DNA of 64,000 bases, taken from an uncultured Caulobacterales bacterium (GTDB lineage: Bacteria > Pseudomonadota > Alphaproteobacteria > Caulobacterales > Caulobacteraceae). The position numbers were made by a program, and so were the translations under genes. This document shows, in pieces, positions 318 to 7,570 of this stretch; the stretch's first letter is position 1; each line of letters starts with the position of its first letter. The notes under the pieces were generated by a model. That model saw only the letters and a list, made by a program, of their open reading frames with translations. It had not been told where the DNA came from and did no database searches. The stretch is taken from NCBI GenBank assembly GCA_903900155.1, contig CAIUMD010000015.1:1-64000 (forward strand), given 5' to 3'.

Positions 318-1457
318 TCACGCGGTCTCAACAGCGATCGCACGAGACGAGGACTTCGACGAAATCGTTTTCGAAAGTGCAAACGTATAGTCATGCTCAA
401 CACCAGCTTTTGTGCCGGGACGGAAAGCATTAGTTTGACGTTTGCGCAATGACGTCGTCTGAACATCACCTAGAAGGCTTACCGTGTACTTCTTGAAGCC
501 GACCTCCAAAGACTTCGTAAGGTTCTCGGTGATCACGTCGCGCTCCAGCGCGCCTCCGATACGTATTACGATCGTCGCGTTTTCGGCCGCAAGCGGAGCA
601 ATGCCTGCCCAAACCTCGGCGAGGAAACGCCAGTAGAGATCCTGACCCGTGTGCCGATCATCTGCGTAAAGCTTCGCCTGCGGGGCGCTACCGCCGCCCA
701 GGAACCACAATCGTAGCCACTGATCTTCGCCGTAGTCCGTCACGTCCAGATACGGCGGTGAAGTGACAATCAGCTTCACCGAACGACGAAGACCTTTGTG
801 AACGTCAGCTCCGTCTCTCGCGTCCGCAAGGACGACTTTGCCGGTTAAGTCGGGCTTGCCAATTTTAAGGCGAAACTTAGCGAGCTCCCGCAACACTTCG
901 AAAGCGTTTCGCTCGGGCGGCTCTAGTCCACGCTCGGTCCACCAGCGAATGGAATACTCCGGCTTAGTCGAAATCGTTCGCGGCATTCTGTTCGACAGGC
1001 ACAGCTTTGAGCGATGGCTCTCCCCGTGCAAGGCGCCTAGCATCATAGCGGCAATGAAGCGATCGATGCGGTTGGCGCGCCAATCGAGCGCTTCGCGCAA
1101 ATAGAGAATCTGACCGAGCGTCTTCTCATGAAAACAATGGTCGAAGAACGGCGTGGGCGATGGCGGGCGATTTTCGGGAATCTGCCCTTCGAGTTCGGTG
1201 ATGCGGCGCAGTACCTGGAGCAACGATGGAGCATCGGCCTTTGCGCCGGAAATGCACGCGGCCACCGGATTGATGTCGGTGCCAGCGGCTTTGCGGCCCA
1301 TCAGCAGGCTTTGAAACACGGTGGTGCCGCGGCCGGAAAATGGATCGTAGACGACATCGCCCACCGATGAATAGGCAAGGATGTTACGCTCCGCGAATTC
1401 CTCGGGGAACATCGCGAAGTAGGGGCAGATCGAATGAAGAGGATGACGTTGCGCCAT
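318..1457 (-). CDS. DNA methyltransferase (N4-cytosine/N6-adenine type)
   Basis: Motif I DPFSGRGTT near the N-terminus and motif IV TSPPY in the C-terminal half; N-terminus HPLHSICPYFAMFPEEFAERNI. Confidence 0.85.
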   Translation of the reverse strand: MAQRHPLHSICPYFAMFPEEFAERNILAYSSVGDVVYDPFSGRGTTVFQSLLMGRKAAGTDINPVAACISGAKADAPSLLQVLRRITELEGQIPENRPPSPTPFFDHCFHEKTLGQILYLREALDWRANRIDRFIAAMMLGALHGESHRSKLCLSNRMPRTISTKPEYSIRWWTERGLEPPERNAFEVLRELAKFRLKIGKPDLTGKVVLADARDGADVHKGLRRSVKLIVTSPPYLDVTDYGEDQWLRLWFLGGGSAPQAKLYADDRHTGQDLYWRFLAEVWAGIAPLAAENATIVIRIGGALERDVITENLTKSLEVGFKKYTVSLLGDVQTTSLRKRQTNAFRPGTKAGVEHDYTFALSKTISSKSSSRAIAVETA

Positions 1458-2497
1458 TAAGCAGTCGCGAGAATCATGGGCCTGAAAGTCTGCACCCAGG
1501 CATGTAGATTGCCGACATCAGCGTGACCGGCAACCCGCCCTGCCGCGCCCGCGTCCTCCATCAACGCCGGAATGGATTCGGTTATCCTGAGACGATCGAG
1601 GATAACGCCATGGCGCCCATGAAGGCGGCGTAGGGCGTTGAAGGTCGCAGTTTCAAACGGCGCATCGCTGCCGGGTTCGGTGACCTCATGATGTCCGAGG
1701 AACGGAACCGCTAGAGACGGCATAGCGACCCGATAGGGAGCGCGTTCGAACCAGTCCAGGAAAGCGTCCAGATGGTTCAAGACGGACTTGGAGTCCCAGT
1801 CCGCACCCGTAGCCGCCTGGCAGACAACAAACATGGTGCCGATCCGCCGGTCGCCAAATTCACGCCAGCCGAGGACGTCTACTTGGTCGTCCTTGGCTTT
1901 TTCCGGAAGGCCGGCCGGCGCGGGCACGTGCGCGGCCGCATAGCCAATCTCCTTGGCCAGGGCGTCGAGAGCGGCGGCGAAATTGGACTTGTCAGGCCGT
2001 GGAAAGCCGAACCAATGCGTACGTCCATGGCGCAGTAACCCCGCGACGCCGAAGCTGGCGCACAGGTGAAACAGGCGCCGGCCTGCGTCGATCGCCGCAT
2101 TTACGGTGCCGTTCTTGTTGAAGAGGCCAAAGGTGTAGCCGCTCATCAAGAGCATGAAGACGTATGCCGACCGCGCAGGTGTGCTGACGTCGGATTTGGT
2201 GCTGATCTGGAAGGGAGCCGCCCGAACTTCAAACGGGTAGCCCTCTCCCAGCGCCTTAGCCCGGAAGGCGATTTCCTCCGCGACGCGCCCAGAGAGATCT
2301 TCCCGCTCGGTTTCGATAATCTCTTCTTCCGCCAAGCCATCACCCAAAACGCGACGCTGGCGATCTCCGTCAGAATTCAACCGGTACAGGCTATCGAGAT
2401 CGCCCACGCCCGCTGGCCGCTCCCGAAGCAAAGCTAGTAGCTCGATCCAATCGGCAAGCAACGAGCGACTGGCATGTAAATCTGGACTATTGATCAC
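1457..2497 (-). CDS. Uncharacterised protein, possible PD-(D/E)XK-like nuclease fold
   Basis: 346 aa ORF; start overlaps the upstream gene stop, stop overlaps the downstream start (TAATG). Segment DDQVDVLGWREFGDRRIGTMFVVCQAATGADWDSK resembles the D...(E/Q)x core of Mrr-like nucleases, but the catalytic Lys is not in canonical position. Confidence 0.6.
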   Translation of the reverse strand: MINSPDLHASRSLLADWIELLALLRERPAGVGDLDSLYRLNSDGDRQRRVLGDGLAEEEIIETEREDLSGRVAEEIAFRAKALGEGYPFEVRAAPFQISTKSDVSTPARSAYVFMLLMSGYTFGLFNKNGTVNAAIDAGRRLFHLCASFGVAGLLRHGRTHWFGFPRPDKSNFAAALDALAKEIGYAAAHVPAPAGLPEKAKDDQVDVLGWREFGDRRIGTMFVVCQAATGADWDSKSVLNHLDAFLDWFERAPYRVAMPSLAVPFLGHHEVTEPGSDAPFETATFNALRRLHGRHGVILDRLRITESIPALMEDAGAAGRVAGHADVGNLHAWVQTFRPMILATA

Positions 2498-3570
2498 AGA
2501 TCGTCGTCCGGCTGCATCTTAGACCGCATTTCATCGCGTAGAATCCGCACCGATGTCGCGAGTTTCTGGACCGTTTCAAGCAAGAGACCTTGGGTCCCGG
2601 CATCGAAATGGGACATGAGACCCAAGGTCCGCTCGGCGGAAAGTGCAGTGTCCTTCAAAGCCTCTTCAAATCTGAATGACGGCGGCTCGACCTCCTCAAA
2701 GGCCAAGCGGAGCGTCTTGGTCTTTTCCAAGACCGCGATGGCGCGCGGCTCCGTCAGCACTTTTACAAACTGGTTTAGGTCGGGATTCTGACTCCGAATT
2801 ACATGTTCCCGACCCTGCCTGGATTGGCCATACAGCCACCCCATCACGGTTTGAAGTTCACCGATTTGCGCTTTCGGAACTGGGTCCTTCGGCAGGATTG
2901 CGCTCACCTCGTCAGTGAGACCGACGTACTTCCGGACGCTAGGACGGGTAAGCGCAGTATAAAGGTGCGAGAAGTTGAACTTCGCCGCCGTGATATCTGA
3001 CTTGTCGAAGCCTTCCGCGACGGCTTGATCCAGCACGATAAGGCCATTCACGAGGCGCAGGACCGTATTGTGGTTGTCGCCAACCGCCTTGGACACATCC
3101 GCGATCGACGCGCCTTCATCCAGCCAATCCTTCGCATATCGCGCCTTGGCGAAAGCGTCCCATTTCGCGGGGCCATTGATGTGCTTGAAGGCGATGAAGG
3201 AGCGGGCTTCCTGGCGGTTGCTGACCCAGCGGACGCGCACCTTTTCCGGCAGCGGCTTTGGATCGCTCACCGCAGGCAGTCTATACTCTGCCTTCTGGCG
3301 GGCAGCCGTGTTGCCGATCATTCTAAGGGCCGCCAGGCGCCGGTTACCCTCGAGCACGGTGTTGCTGCCCCGCTCAACAATGAGCGGTTCATAGTCAATC
3401 CAGCCGGCAGATAGTACCGAGCTGACAATCTCGTCGATATCCGCCGATGCTATCAGATGACTAATCGCTTCGCCTTCATCGGCGAACGTGTCACTCCCGG
3501 CGCGCGGGTTCTGAAGGTCGAACTGGAGCAGCGCGGGATCGACGTAATCCTCGTCTTTGAATTCGGTCAC
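2494..3570 (-). CDS. ParB/sulfiredoxin-like N-terminal domain protein
   Basis: Contains LEGNRRLAALRMIGN (ParB-like E-G-x-R-R motif) and a downstream HTH-like ADVSKAVGDNHNTVLRLVNGL. Confidence 0.75.
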   Translation of the reverse strand: MTEFKDEDYVDPALLQFDLQNPRAGSDTFADEGEAISHLIASADIDEIVSSVLSAGWIDYEPLIVERGSNTVLEGNRRLAALRMIGNTAARQKAEYRLPAVSDPKPLPEKVRVRWVSNRQEARSFIAFKHINGPAKWDAFAKARYAKDWLDEGASIADVSKAVGDNHNTVLRLVNGLIVLDQAVAEGFDKSDITAAKFNFSHLYTALTRPSVRKYVGLTDEVSAILPKDPVPKAQIGELQTVMGWLYGQSRQGREHVIRSQNPDLNQFVKVLTEPRAIAVLEKTKTLRLAFEEVEPPSFRFEEALKDTALSAERTLGLMSHFDAGTQGLLLETVQKLATSVRILRDEMRSKMQPDDDL

Positions 3571-3967: not shown

Positions 3968-5089
3968 TCACCGCTCCAAATCGTACCCGCGTTGCCGCTC
4001 CAAGATCTCAGCCCCGGCCCGCGACACCCTCACCAGGTCACCGGGCCGAACCTCTGCCCTATCCAGCGCGATCGCCGCCTTGTCGGACTGGAACGTCACG
4101 ATCTTGCCCGAGCCGCGCTCTTCCAGGGTTATTTTCCACTCCCCGTCGGATCGGCTCTGCGCCAGCCCCTTGAACCAGCCCACCACCTCACGAGCCGTTT
4201 CCCTCATGCGCCCAGCGGCACGCTGTAGGGCCTGGAACAGCTCCTTGATCTGACTAGAGCTTAGCCCATCGAACACACGTTCGAAGACGTCCAGGCGTTC
4301 ATGCGCGTCATCCAGCTCCTTGGTTAGGCGCCCGACCTCCCGCGCTTGATCGCGCTCGCGGCGGGCCAAGTGCATCGTCTCGACGCCCTTTTGAACTGCC
4401 GGTTTCAGTTGCTCAACGACAGCGCCAGCCACTCGGCCCGCAAAGGCCTCATCATTCTCCCAGATCGTCGTCAGGATGCCCCTTTCCAGCGCCTGGCGCT
4501 CTTTGGGGTAGGTGACGTCGCGACCTAGGTCCGCAGCCCGCGAGATCGTCGAGTAGTACTCCTTGACGGTCTGGTGCCTGGCGACGCTGCCCTCTATGCC
4601 GCGCTCCAGGCCATGTTCGCGGCCGACCCGTTGCCAGAAGTCGGTCTGCATTTCCGAGAGGGTCTTCTTTCCCCCCAGCCACTTCTTGGCGTTCAACTTG
4701 TCGCCATCCCGGGGCACGACGTAGGCGACCAGGTGCGGCGTCTTCTCGTCGCGGTGAACATGGGCGCTTATGACGTTCTCCGCGCCGTGCCGGTCGCATA
4801 GCCAGTGCAGCGATCCTCGGAAATATGCGGCGTCGTCGCCTCGCCATTCCGGGCTGTGGCCGACGAAGTACTCGATGCACAGCACAGCGTCGGAGCGGTA
4901 CTTGGCCGGAAGCGCCGCCCGGATTGCCGCCAGCGCGCCGGCTCCGGTCTCGGCACCCCAATGCTCGTTCGCCAGCTTGAGCGCCGGGTCGGCGTTGTGA
5001 GTCTCACGCTCCCTGAACGTGTGGGCCAGCGAGCCGCCGATTTCACCGAAGCTCTTGAGCTTGGCCGTGCGGAGGATTGCGTAGGCCAT
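3968..5089 (-). CDS. MobV (Mob/Pre) family relaxase
   Basis: N-terminus MAYAILRTAKLKSFGEIGGSLAHTFRERETHNADP and motif HVHRDEKTPHLVAYVVP are characteristic of Mob/Pre relaxases. Confidence 0.85.
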   Translation of the reverse strand: MAYAILRTAKLKSFGEIGGSLAHTFRERETHNADPALKLANEHWGAETGAGALAAIRAALPAKYRSDAVLCIEYFVGHSPEWRGDDAAYFRGSLHWLCDRHGAENVISAHVHRDEKTPHLVAYVVPRDGDKLNAKKWLGGKKTLSEMQTDFWQRVGREHGLERGIEGSVARHQTVKEYYSTISRAADLGRDVTYPKERQALERGILTTIWENDEAFAGRVAGAVVEQLKPAVQKGVETMHLARRERDQAREVGRLTKELDDAHERLDVFERVFDGLSSSQIKELFQALQRAAGRMRETAREVVGWFKGLAQSRSDGEWKITLEERGSGKIVTFQSDKAAIALDRAEVRPGDLVRVSRAGAEILERQRGYDLER

Positions 5090-5111
5090 GGGGTCACCAC
5101 CAGCCTGAGCG

Positions 5112-5152
5112 CAGCAAAGGTGTACTCACTACACCTTTGCTGTCGCAAAGGT
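5112..5152. other. Putative oriT: 13-bp perfect inverted repeat plus a third partial copy
   Basis: CAGCAAAGGTGTA (5112-5124) / CTCAC / TACACCTTTGCTG (5130-5142), then GCAAAGGT direct repeat (5145-5152), immediately upstream of the relaxase gene. Confidence 0.55.
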
Positions 5153-5221
5153 CGCTCGCCGGGGCATAGCCCCTGGTCCCCGGCCGCTTCGCGGCTAGGG
5201 GCTCCTCGCCCCTAACCCTCG

Positions 5222-5241
5222 GCAGGAGGATACCCTCCTGC
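5222..5241. repeat. 8-bp perfect inverted repeat
   Basis: GCAGGAGG-ATAC-CCTCCTGC. Confidence 0.6.
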
Positions 5242-5328
5242 ACCACCCCACCACTTTTTGTCGTCCGATTCCGCATGAGCAGCCCAGCCAGTTTCGCCAT
5301 TTGTATTTATCACAGATGGGCTTGAGGC

Positions 5329-5355
5329 CGTCATCTGCGAATGTTACAGATGACG
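5329..5355. promoter_or_regulatory. Operator-like inverted repeat directly before a start codon
   Basis: CGTCATCTG (5329-5337) and CAGATGACG (5347-5355), with an extra half-site ACAGATG at 5312-5318; the ATG of the next ORF is at 5357. Confidence 0.5.
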
Positions 5356-5356
5356 T

Positions 5357-6097
5357 ATGGCAATGCTCTCAGATCTCGTCCGCGTTACCGCTGAGACGAC
5401 TGGCGATCCAGAATCGACCGTCACCGTGATAGCTCGCGCGCTGCGTGAAGCTGGTTTCATCGCTACGGGCGGCCGAGGACGTAGTGGTGCCAAGATGTCT
5501 GCCAGCGATGCGGCGAGCCTTTTGCTCGGCGTTTGCACCCCGGGCGAAAGCACCAAAGCCGCCGAAACCGTCCGCATCGCCAGTCCTCTGAGGCTTGAGC
5601 GAGGTGCCGAGCTGCCGAATGGCGTAGGCATCTTCCTGGAGGACTACGAGAATGAGCTCGGACTGAGGCCGGGCGAGACCCTGCATAATTGCCTAACCTT
5701 GCTCCTTGAACGCCTTATCGATCCTCCAGAGGCAGCCGCACCGCGAATTGAACCGTCGAAAACCGCTCCGTCCGGAAGACGCTCATTCGACATGACGCCG
5801 TTCAAGTTCAGAGGCGACACGTGGCCAAGCTCCGTCGAGCTTGAGATCGCACGAAACACCTATGGGCTGCGCGCCCATCTAAAACTTCGGGTCCGCGGGG
5901 GCGAACTGCTGAAGCTAACTTTCAGCCCAAACGGCGAGCATTGGATCGTAGATCTGGAAAAAGGCGCACTAGCGAGAGAGAGCCGTGGGAAGCACTCTTC
6001 GATAACGCTCCTGCCCGAGGTGGCACATGGCGTCGTCTCCTGTTTGCGTGGCGGTCAAGCCGAACTATCGCGCGATAACGGCGGCATCGACGCATGA
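5357..6097 (+). CDS. Hypothetical protein of the integrated element
   Basis: 246 aa ORF with island-like context; 4-nt overlap with the next ORF (ATGA at 6094-6097). Confidence 0.65.
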   Translation: MAMLSDLVRVTAETTGDPESTVTVIARALREAGFIATGGRGRSGAKMSASDAASLLLGVCTPGESTKAAETVRIASPLRLERGAELPNGVGIFLEDYENELGLRPGETLHNCLTLLLERLIDPPEAAAPRIEPSKTAPSGRRSFDMTPFKFRGDTWPSSVELEIARNTYGLRAHLKLRVRGGELLKLTFSPNGEHWIVDLEKGALARESRGKHSSITLLPEVAHGVVSCLRGGQAELSRDNGGIDA

Positions 6098-6363
6098 GGA
6101 AGGCCCGAGCCGATCTGCCACCGTCCCTAGCACCCCGGGGCCTCACGATCGCCCAAGCGGCCGCACTTGCCGGCCTCGGAGAAGCCAGTTTCGCTGCCGC
6201 ACGCGCGCGCGGTGAGTATCCGAACCCAACACTCCCGGGCGGCCGTGTGGATCGCGTGCTGCTGGAACAAGCTATGGACCGTCTCAGCGGGATCCTCACT
6301 GAGCGAGAGGTGACCGACCCGCTCGCAGCCTGGGAGAGCCGCCGCAATGCGCGTAGCACTTAG
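6094..6363 (+). CDS. Small HTH/excisionase-like DNA-binding protein
   Basis: LTIAQAAALAGLGEASFAAARARGEYPNPTLPGGRVDRVLLEQAMDRL resembles AlpA/Xis-type helix-turn-helix proteins; located directly before the integrase. Confidence 0.55.
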   Translation: MRKARADLPPSLAPRGLTIAQAAALAGLGEASFAAARARGEYPNPTLPGGRVDRVLLEQAMDRLSGILTEREVTDPLAAWESRRNARST

Positions 6364-7465
6364 AGGCATCAACACCGTTCGCAAGCGCCTCAGCAGCGGA
6401 CGCGTCGTGCGGTACTACTATCACCGCGAGACCGGTGTCCGGCTCGAAGGGGAGCCAAACTCTCCGGAGTTCATCGCCTCCTACTCCAGAGCCGAGCAGC
6501 TTGTACGAAATCGCCACGCGACAGGCGTGTTCGCGTCTCTGTCTCGCGACTACATGCGGTCACCTGAGTTCCGCACCCAGCTCGCCGATAGCACCAGGCG
6601 CGAATACGCGCGAAAGCTCGCCTTCGCTGAAGCCGAGTTCGCGGATCTTCCCATCGCGGCACTGAACAATCCCCGCGTGAAAGCGCCCTTGATGGCCTGG
6701 CGCGCCAAGGTCGCCGAAACCTCCGGCGCGCGTGAGGCTGATTACCGGCTCTCGGTCATATCCGCGATGCTGCGCTGGGCCGTCGACAACGGCGTGATCG
6801 AGACAAATCACCTCAAGGGCTTCAAGCGGCTCTATCGCTCGAACCGCGCGGAGGTCATCTGGCTTCCCGAGAATATCGAAGCCTTCATGTCCGCCGCGCC
6901 CGTGGAAATGCAGCAGGCCCTTATCCTAGCTCTGCATACCGGCCTCCGACAGGGTGACCTCCGAAAGCTGTGTTGGAACAACTACGACGGAACGCACCTG
7001 ACGCTGAGGATCGGCAAGAACCAGCGCGGAGGCGTCCAAGGCCCCCTGGTTCACATCCCCTGCACACGGGCGCTCAGAAGCATGCTGGACGGCATGGAGC
7101 GACGCGCGGCGGTGATCCTGACGACAAAGGAAGGTCGCCCCTTCACGGCTCGATATTTCGGCCATCAGTGGGAGAAGGCGATGGTCGCGGCCGGTATGGA
7201 GACATCACCGCTCCACTTCCACGACCTACGCGGCACGGCCGTGACCATGTTGGCGGAAGCCGGCTGCAGCGTCGCGCAGATCGTCGCCATCACCCAGCAC
7301 TCGCTGGCGACCGCGACTCGAATTTTGGAAGTCTATCTCTCGCCGACCAAGCACCTCGCCAACCAGGCGATTGCGCAGTTCGAGAACGCCAAGGAAACGG
7401 AATTTGCAAACCGGCTGCAAACCAGCGCCACCGCGCCGATCTCCAACACCAATCGGAAAGGCTGA
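6347..7465 (+). CDS. Tyrosine recombinase/phage-type integrase
   Basis: C-terminal catalytic motifs ALHTGLRQGDLRKL, HDLRGTAVTML, TQHSLAT and EVYL; ends 28 bp before the tRNA 3' end. Confidence 0.92.
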   Translation: MRVALRGINTVRKRLSSGRVVRYYYHRETGVRLEGEPNSPEFIASYSRAEQLVRNRHATGVFASLSRDYMRSPEFRTQLADSTRREYARKLAFAEAEFADLPIAALNNPRVKAPLMAWRAKVAETSGAREADYRLSVISAMLRWAVDNGVIETNHLKGFKRLYRSNRAEVIWLPENIEAFMSAAPVEMQQALILALHTGLRQGDLRKLCWNNYDGTHLTLRIGKNQRGGVQGPLVHIPCTRALRSMLDGMERRAAVILTTKEGRPFTARYFGHQWEKAMVAAGMETSPLHFHDLRGTAVTMLAEAGCSVAQIVAITQHSLATATRILEVYLSPTKHLANQAIAQFENAKETEFANRLQTSATAPISNTNRKG

Positions 7466-7493: not shown

Positions 7494-7570
7494 TGGCGCG
7501 CCCGGAACGATTCGAACGTCCGACCCTCAGATTCGTAGTCTGATGCTCTATCCAGCTGAGCTACGGGCGC
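7494..7570 (-). tRNA. tRNA-Arg (anticodon ACG)
   Basis: Reverse strand GCGCCCGTAGCTCAGCTGGATAGAGCATCAGACTACGAATCTGAGGGTCGGACGTTCGAATCGTTCCGGGCGCGCCA folds as a cloverleaf with encoded CCA. Confidence 0.95.

Follow-up and report, generated by a model that had tools for sequence, protein, structure and literature searches.

A conserved pair of ParB-fold and nuclease-like proteins with an exchangeable methyltransferase: a candidate restriction-modification variant on a mobile element of a Caulobacteraceae bacterium

The first 64,000 nucleotides of contig CAIUMD010000015.1 (GenBank assembly GCA_903900155.1, from an uncultured member of the Caulobacteraceae; this whole stretch is called the window below) carry near their left end three genes, here named A, B, and C, which were analyzed as a candidate defence system. 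All three open reading frames (ORFs) are intact, overlap on the minus strand, and fill positions 318-3570 without a gap (Table 1). A sequence-only reading of this DNA had placed the ORFs at these same coordinates and had recognized the motifs DPFSGRGTT (residues 38-46 of C), TSPPY (residues 232-236 of C), and EGNRR (in A), all of which were confirmed. It had also described the genes as translationally coupled through an ATGA and a TAATG overlap; the latter is present at 1455-1459 between B and C, but the A/B overlap is GTGA (the plus strand reads tcac at 2494-2497). The genes were further said to be enclosed between an insertion sequence (IS) edge and a relaxase gene. The relaxase belongs to the MobV family, but the IS edge, to the left of C, coincides with the end of the assembly contig (C15).

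Table 1. Positions in the window of genes A, B, and C, their motifs, and features of the carrying element (SAM, S-adenosylmethionine; aa, amino acids)
Feature	Position	Strand	Remarks
Gene A	2494..3570	minus	ORF of 358 aa, GTG start; ParB/KorB fold with N domain, helix-turn-helix domain, and all-helical C-terminal region
EGNRR, A residues 74-78 (Box II / P-motif equivalent)	3337..3351	minus	100% conserved in 107 homologues
Helix-turn-helix of A, residues 147-174	3049..3132	minus	Weak HTH_38 match; model helices 156-163 and 167-185
Gene B	1457..2497	minus	ORF of 346 aa, GTG start; predicted PD-(D/E)XK-like nuclease, putative restriction effector
KD-xxx-D, B residues 202-207, first half of predicted active site	1877..1894	minus	D203 and D207 in 104/104
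Q-x-A-x-G-x2-W-x2-K, B residues 227-237, second half of predicted active site	1787..1819	minus	Q227 99%, K237 98%
Gene C	318..1457	minus	ORF of 379 aa, ATG start; DNA amino-methyltransferase (N6-adenine or N4-cytosine, SPPY type)
C motif I, DPFSGRGTT (SAM binding)	1320..1346	minus	Core residues invariant in 35 homologues
C motif IV, TSPPY (catalysis)	750..764	minus	Invariant in 35 homologues
Edge of multicopy insertion sequence at contig end	1..139	minus	Recurrence in genome; IS3-like from first residues, by eye
MobV relaxase of carrying mobile element	3968..5089	minus	Family matches
Tyrosine integrase of carrying element	6347..7465	plus	Family match; adjoins tRNA-Arg
tRNA-Arg gene	7494-7570		29 bp beyond integrase end

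Relatives were gathered by profile searches: a B profile was run on 399 Pseudomonadota genomes, and GTDB genome contigs and viral contigs were searched with an A profile by itself. Profiles were needed, as scans of the viral and genome contigs with the single A or B sequence returned nothing. The B profile found relatives in five of the 399 genomes (the window's own among them), and the A profile returned 129 loci, numbered with an L below. Wherever a strong A hit has enough sequence around it, B is the next gene downstream, in most cases with an overlap or a gap of a few bases. Two loci are broken or incomplete: in L055, A is split in two frames and followed by B and C, and in L056, B was not detected in the 1.7 kb to the contig end. 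Conversely, A is present at all loci found with B. After removal of near-copies, 107 non-redundant A-B pairs remained (a set selected as A-B pairs, most of them fetched with A alone), which span 13 named phyla in addition to unassigned and viral contigs. A methyltransferase gene lies beside 100 of them, six of the other seven end at a contig edge, and L054 is the single pair truly lacking an adjacent methyltransferase. An independent figure comes from the fetch with A alone, where a methyltransferase was found within 2.5 kb in 98 of 108 A-B pairs, while the rest of those 108 loci (629 kb) contained one methyltransferase hit. The arrangement of A, B, and a methyltransferase thus occurs far beyond chance. 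No B was found in phage records, and plasmid records gave very few B matches. In three loci A or B is split in two frames (L016:3836-4986, L055:7944-9073, and L094:9049-10028), which possibly reflects inactivation or sequencing errors.

The methyltransferases at these loci belong to three unrelated classes: 39 are of the C type (SPPY, Pfam PF01555), 58 of the D12/Dam type (PF02086), and three are C5-cytosine methyltransferases (PF00145). The C-type gene always follows B on the same strand, and the D12 gene is usually convergent. A careful tree built from 91 A proteins shows at least seven changes of class, six of which are forced by well-supported branches. L033, L064, and L083 were excluded from this count, as the divergent D12 gene at these loci possibly belongs to another restriction-modification (RM) system, and four long-branched or broken sequences (L024, L067, L079, and L137) were also left out; the count fell from 11 to 7. 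An instance is given by L084 and L092, well-placed neighbours on the tree that carry different classes; the identity between the two loci is 65% for A and 61% for B. Among close pairs, the ratio of nonsynonymous to synonymous substitution rates is 0.02-0.23 for A, B, and the methyltransferase wherever it could be computed (the window copy is too diverged and stands outside this set), and all three genes are therefore under purifying selection in these close relatives. A and B form a conserved, putative restriction module, and the methyltransferase is exchanged between loci. The sequence-only reading had treated the three genes as one unit; its refuting condition, that the trio is not co-conserved, is decisively contradicted, but the conserved unit proper is A with B. 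At the three loci set aside, the divergent D12 gene (L033:9886-11603, L064:10385-12102, and L083:10154-11026) stands beside A-B; in L033 and L064 it adjoins what looks by eye like a gene for a NotI-family restriction enzyme, and the SPPY gene is absent or reduced to a fragment (of 95 aa in L064).

By its motif I and its catalytic (D/S/N)PP(Y/F) motif, protein C is a DNA amino-methyltransferase, and it matches PF01555 (1e-17) and the PADLOC model MTase_II (4e-30; the 2023 release of PADLOC was used throughout). Its homologues at the equivalent position of other loci are 50-59% identical. The N-terminal motif region of C (residues 13-68) aligns with the C-terminal part (residues 218-273) of enzymes in the PDB, and the motif order of C is therefore permuted relative to them. 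More distant C-type methyltransferases (E ~1e-50) that stand without A-B have HerA-like and NurA-like neighbours in two of three cases, which is a further sign of module exchange. These two cases (L173, 278-4907 on the minus strand, and L175, 2816-7378) are operons in which a NurA-like gene with an AIDGS motif and a HerA-like gene were recognized by eye; they represent a possible HerA-NurA-methyltransferase defence system.

Searched as a single sequence, protein B had no match in Pfam, NCBIfam, PADLOC, or the PDB, and 15 of its relatives had none in Pfam, NCBIfam, or the PDB; sequence matches are limited to PHROG 14650 (2e-28) and PHROG 3984, both families of unassigned function. The relatives share the signature D-x3-D...Q-x-A-x-G-x5-K, in which D203 and D207 are, like R302, invariant among 104 relatives, and Q227, G231, and K237 are conserved at 98-99%. 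An AlphaFold model built from 15 sequences (predicted local distance difference test, pLDDT, 85; predicted template modelling score, pTM, 0.88) places helix 173-184, strand 208-212 directly after D207, strand 222-228 holding Q227, helix 243-247, and strand 258-263 in an order that fits the PD-(D/E)XK core, with D207 and Q227 at the expected places in this order and the lysine displaced to 237. The top folds in the PDB are two MspJI chains, both weak matches (probability 0.77 and 0.69, E 0.055 and 0.16, template modelling (TM) score ~0.28); BsoBI, Bse634I, Card1, and MUS81 rank lower, no match reaches E 0.001, and a viral fold library gave no clear match. Given the signature and the topology, and with no significant match, B is predicted to be a PD-(D/E)XK-like nuclease. 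The earlier statement that no canonical restriction subunit lies nearby is accordingly not upheld, for B is by this signature the likely restriction subunit.

Protein A matches PHROG 3694 (1e-61), and ParB profiles match its homologues, with 14 of 35 relatives assigned to the NCBI ParB partition family. Its AlphaFold model (pLDDT 93) retrieves KorB, ParB, and Noc in Foldseek, each with probability 1.00, and AlphaFold, Foldseek, and the ParB profiles together show that both the ParB-type N domain and the helix-turn-helix (HTH) domain are present. Like the ParB/KorB/Noc CTPase clamps, A has NPR and GNRR motifs, which are kept in 107 of 107 homologues, and an HTH; it differs from them in lacking a neighbouring ParA, in its link to a nuclease-like protein and a methyltransferase, and in the position of Box III (E-x-x-Q-R), where a conserved F-K-H-I-N-G is found instead and the nucleotide pocket has diverged. 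The genome's own ParB (L176) has E-T-V-Q-R in Box III. As treated in the sections of a ParB-fold survey on fusions and nucleotide use, mutation of the Box II arginine abolishes binding of nucleoside triphosphates (NTPs) by proteins of this fold, which include binders of CTP, ATP, and GTP, and sequence is no reliable predictor of the nucleotide used (PMC12704722). Because the pocket has diverged and Box III is replaced, A may or may not use a nucleotide, and the CTP binding that had been suggested for it is no more than a possibility. In locus L034 (6783-8942), A is 719 aa long; its N-terminus is extended by ~370 residues without a Pfam match, possibly owing to a wrong upstream start.

The closest known relative of these loci is PD-lambda-5, an anti-phage system of E. 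coli prophages for which protection was demonstrated by experiment. The host used by its authors had no mrr region (PMC9519451), as would suit an active methyltransferase. The ParB-like first ~225 residues of A are homologous to PD-Lambda-5_A (hhalign 99.8%, E 2e-29), about half of the A-B loci have a D12 methyltransferase (the one scanned matches PD-Lambda-5_B at 1e-89), and both systems are carried on mobile elements. In contrast, PD-Lambda-5_A is 450-510 aa long, has an unrelated C-terminal half, and has no partner B, whereas the A-B loci add a separate nuclease-like B and the window methyltransferase is of the SPPY class. The PADLOC model of PD-Lambda-5_A matches window A at 8e-16, with A residues 11-148 aligned to the first 154 model positions, and PD-Lambda-5_B is absent among the best 25 of the 57 PADLOC matches of window C; neither result makes the window locus a PD-lambda-5 system. 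The idea that B is the missing half of PD-Lambda-5_A was rejected, since the two are unrelated. The weak A hits L138-L153 show the PD-lambda-5 layout, in which a 450-510 aa ParB-like protein is accompanied by a D12 methyltransferase; in the example scanned, each of the two PADLOC models found its match. In six loci (L009, L040, L061, L051, L084, and L096) a PD-Lambda-5_A-like gene and A-B are arranged around one D12 methyltransferase. This arrangement suggests, short of proof, that the two ParB-like proteins recognize a common mark, with the ParB part as the sensor and a variable effector. In L084 the D12 gene sits behind the PD-Lambda-5_A gene, and its mark may therefore be shared.

Another likeness concerns the PADLOC candidate PDC-M38A, whose 715-position profile aligns over positions 59-344 with residues 43-326 of A (5e-11); it is twice the length of A, and the match covers part of A. 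The trio, PDC-M38, and a role of ParB in PD-lambda-5 were not found described in a literature search that was thin on subscription papers. The main text of Rousset et al. 2022 (PMC9122126) mentions neither ParB nor a methyltransferase, and no such operon appears in the above sections of the ParB-fold survey (PMC12704722). Within the literature searched, the impression that the trio is no named system holds as far as the whole is concerned, but its first protein shares the ParB-like part of PD-Lambda-5_A and its sister loci use PD-Lambda-5_B.

Several A-B loci stand in surroundings associated with defence. In L122 and L111, A-B and a D12 gene are flanked by a P2-like replication gene on one side and a portal gene on the other, an interval of P2 prophages that is a hotspot of defence genes (PMC9519451); the gpA and portal assignments follow position and length, because the Pfam scan gives totals over the flanking genes. 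In L008, TIR and pAgo genes stand beside A-B. PADLOC models matched among the 134 nearest flanking ORFs, for which no background rate is available, include pAgo, PD-T4-4_A, PDC-M03A, and a type II nicking enzyme. The pAgo of L008 is a short one that forms, with TIR-APAZ, a SPARTA-like pair (4208-7187) directly adjoining the C5-methyltransferase-A-B locus. L009, from the window's genus, contains between 186 and 12095 TnsA/TnsB-like genes (by eye), PD-Lambda-5_A, a GIY-YIG-like gene, A-B, a D12 methyltransferase, and a 717-aa HTH protein, and is possibly Tn7-like defence cargo. HTH proteins of 717-731 aa with a P-loop-like GxxGxGKTT/S motif, to which no PADLOC model matched, adjoin A-B in L003 (2091-4286) and L009 (9942-12095).

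In the window, the carrying element is likely, though not proved, to be integrated at the tRNA-Arg gene next to its integrase; a search that allowed two mismatches found no repeat of the tRNA 3' end as a second attachment (att) site. The first ~139 bases of the window have 13 further copies in the genome, mostly at contig ends, and this multicopy insertion sequence probably broke the assembly here. Promoter and terminator scans gave no signal above chance level.

Taken together, A, B, and C probably constitute an RM-type defence in which C marks self and A with B cuts unmarked DNA, the role of A being the less certain part. Judging from its motifs, C would methylate a DNA site and thereby mark the host and the carrying element; A, with its ParB/KorB fold, would load on unmarked DNA and recruit or license B, which, from its signature and fold, is expected to cut that DNA. 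Cleavage, this order of recognition, any nucleotide gating, and protection against phage are what we infer from these parts. These findings also support the original proposal of an RM-like system in which the effector is likely the middle protein and the DNA-binding component the ParB-like one. As in type II RM systems, a methyltransferase and a predicted PD-(D/E)XK nuclease share a compact mobile locus with no helicase gene; unlike them, the loci have an obligate ParB-fold third protein and combine one restriction module with three unrelated classes of methyltransferase. More tentatively, and with considerable doubt, an NTP-gated ParB-fold clamp, instead of a target-recognition domain or a helicase-translocase, might load on unmarked DNA, deliver the PD-(D/E)XK nuclease, and couple to adenine, N4-cytosine, and C5-cytosine methylation alike.

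Several observations weigh against an RM-type defence. A and B remain similar across class changes (65% and 61% between L084 and L092), which is odd if either reads the exact methylated site. The methyltransferase gene of the SPPY branch comes last, downstream of the putative nuclease gene. B has weak fold matches, the best at E 0.055 and TM ~0.28, and the lysine of (D/E)XK is an alanine in B (Q-x-A), with an invariant lysine eight residues further on; K237 may substitute for the usual active-site lysine.

If A were only a transcriptional regulator comparable to a C protein, the system would be a type II one of two proteins, with B alone recognizing and cutting the site that C methylates. KorB is a repressor of transcription, small HTH regulators are frequent in RM systems, and A has a KorB-like fold with an HTH. 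This explanation appears unlikely, as A is well conserved and never absent from loci found with B, its C-terminal region extends ~170 aa beyond the HTH domain of ParB, and the same ParB module is joined to a different C-terminal half in PD-lambda-5.

We also consider it rather unlikely that the trio acts by abortive infection (Abi), as proposed for PD-lambda-5, with A sensing the methylation state and a triggered B cutting host nucleic acid to kill or arrest the cell, and no direct restriction of the invader. The ParB region common to A and PD-Lambda-5_A, the six loci built around one D12 methyltransferase, and the description of PD-lambda-5 as a compacted RM+Abi system (PMC9519451) speak for it, but B is unrelated to PD-Lambda-5_A and resembles a PD-(D/E)XK-type DNase, not an RNase.

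A further alternative is a type IV-like, modification-dependent system, in which A and B attack foreign-modified DNA and the methyltransferase gene is independent of them or in competition with them. GmrSD-type systems include ParB/Srx-fold proteins (PMC10952713, PMC12839542), and MspJI, the best PDB fold match of B, is a modification-dependent enzyme. This match is weak; B differs from MspJI in its displaced active-site lysine, in having no identifiable modification-reading domain, and in adjoining a methyltransferase. Since type IV systems need no methyltransferase, whereas one of the three classes adjoins A-B almost without exception, this alternative is improbable. RM systems can serve as addiction modules, and a ParB fold on a mobilizable island could point to a partition or maintenance module with A acting as ParB, which we regard as very improbable because no ParA gene lies beside the locus in the window, chromosomal and prophage copies exist, and the link to B and a methyltransferase is constant.

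With the RM-type defence as the preferred explanation, the trio looks like an undescribed restriction-modification variant that is sister to PD-lambda-5 in one component. This would provide a likely job for a widespread group of orphan ParB-fold proteins and would tie PD-lambda-5, for which we found no account of a mechanism, to loci where the nuclease-like protein is encoded separately. If A and B do work with three methylation chemistries, the natural swaps seen between close relatives such as L084 and L092 would make it possible to test how one restriction module adapts to a new methyltransferase.

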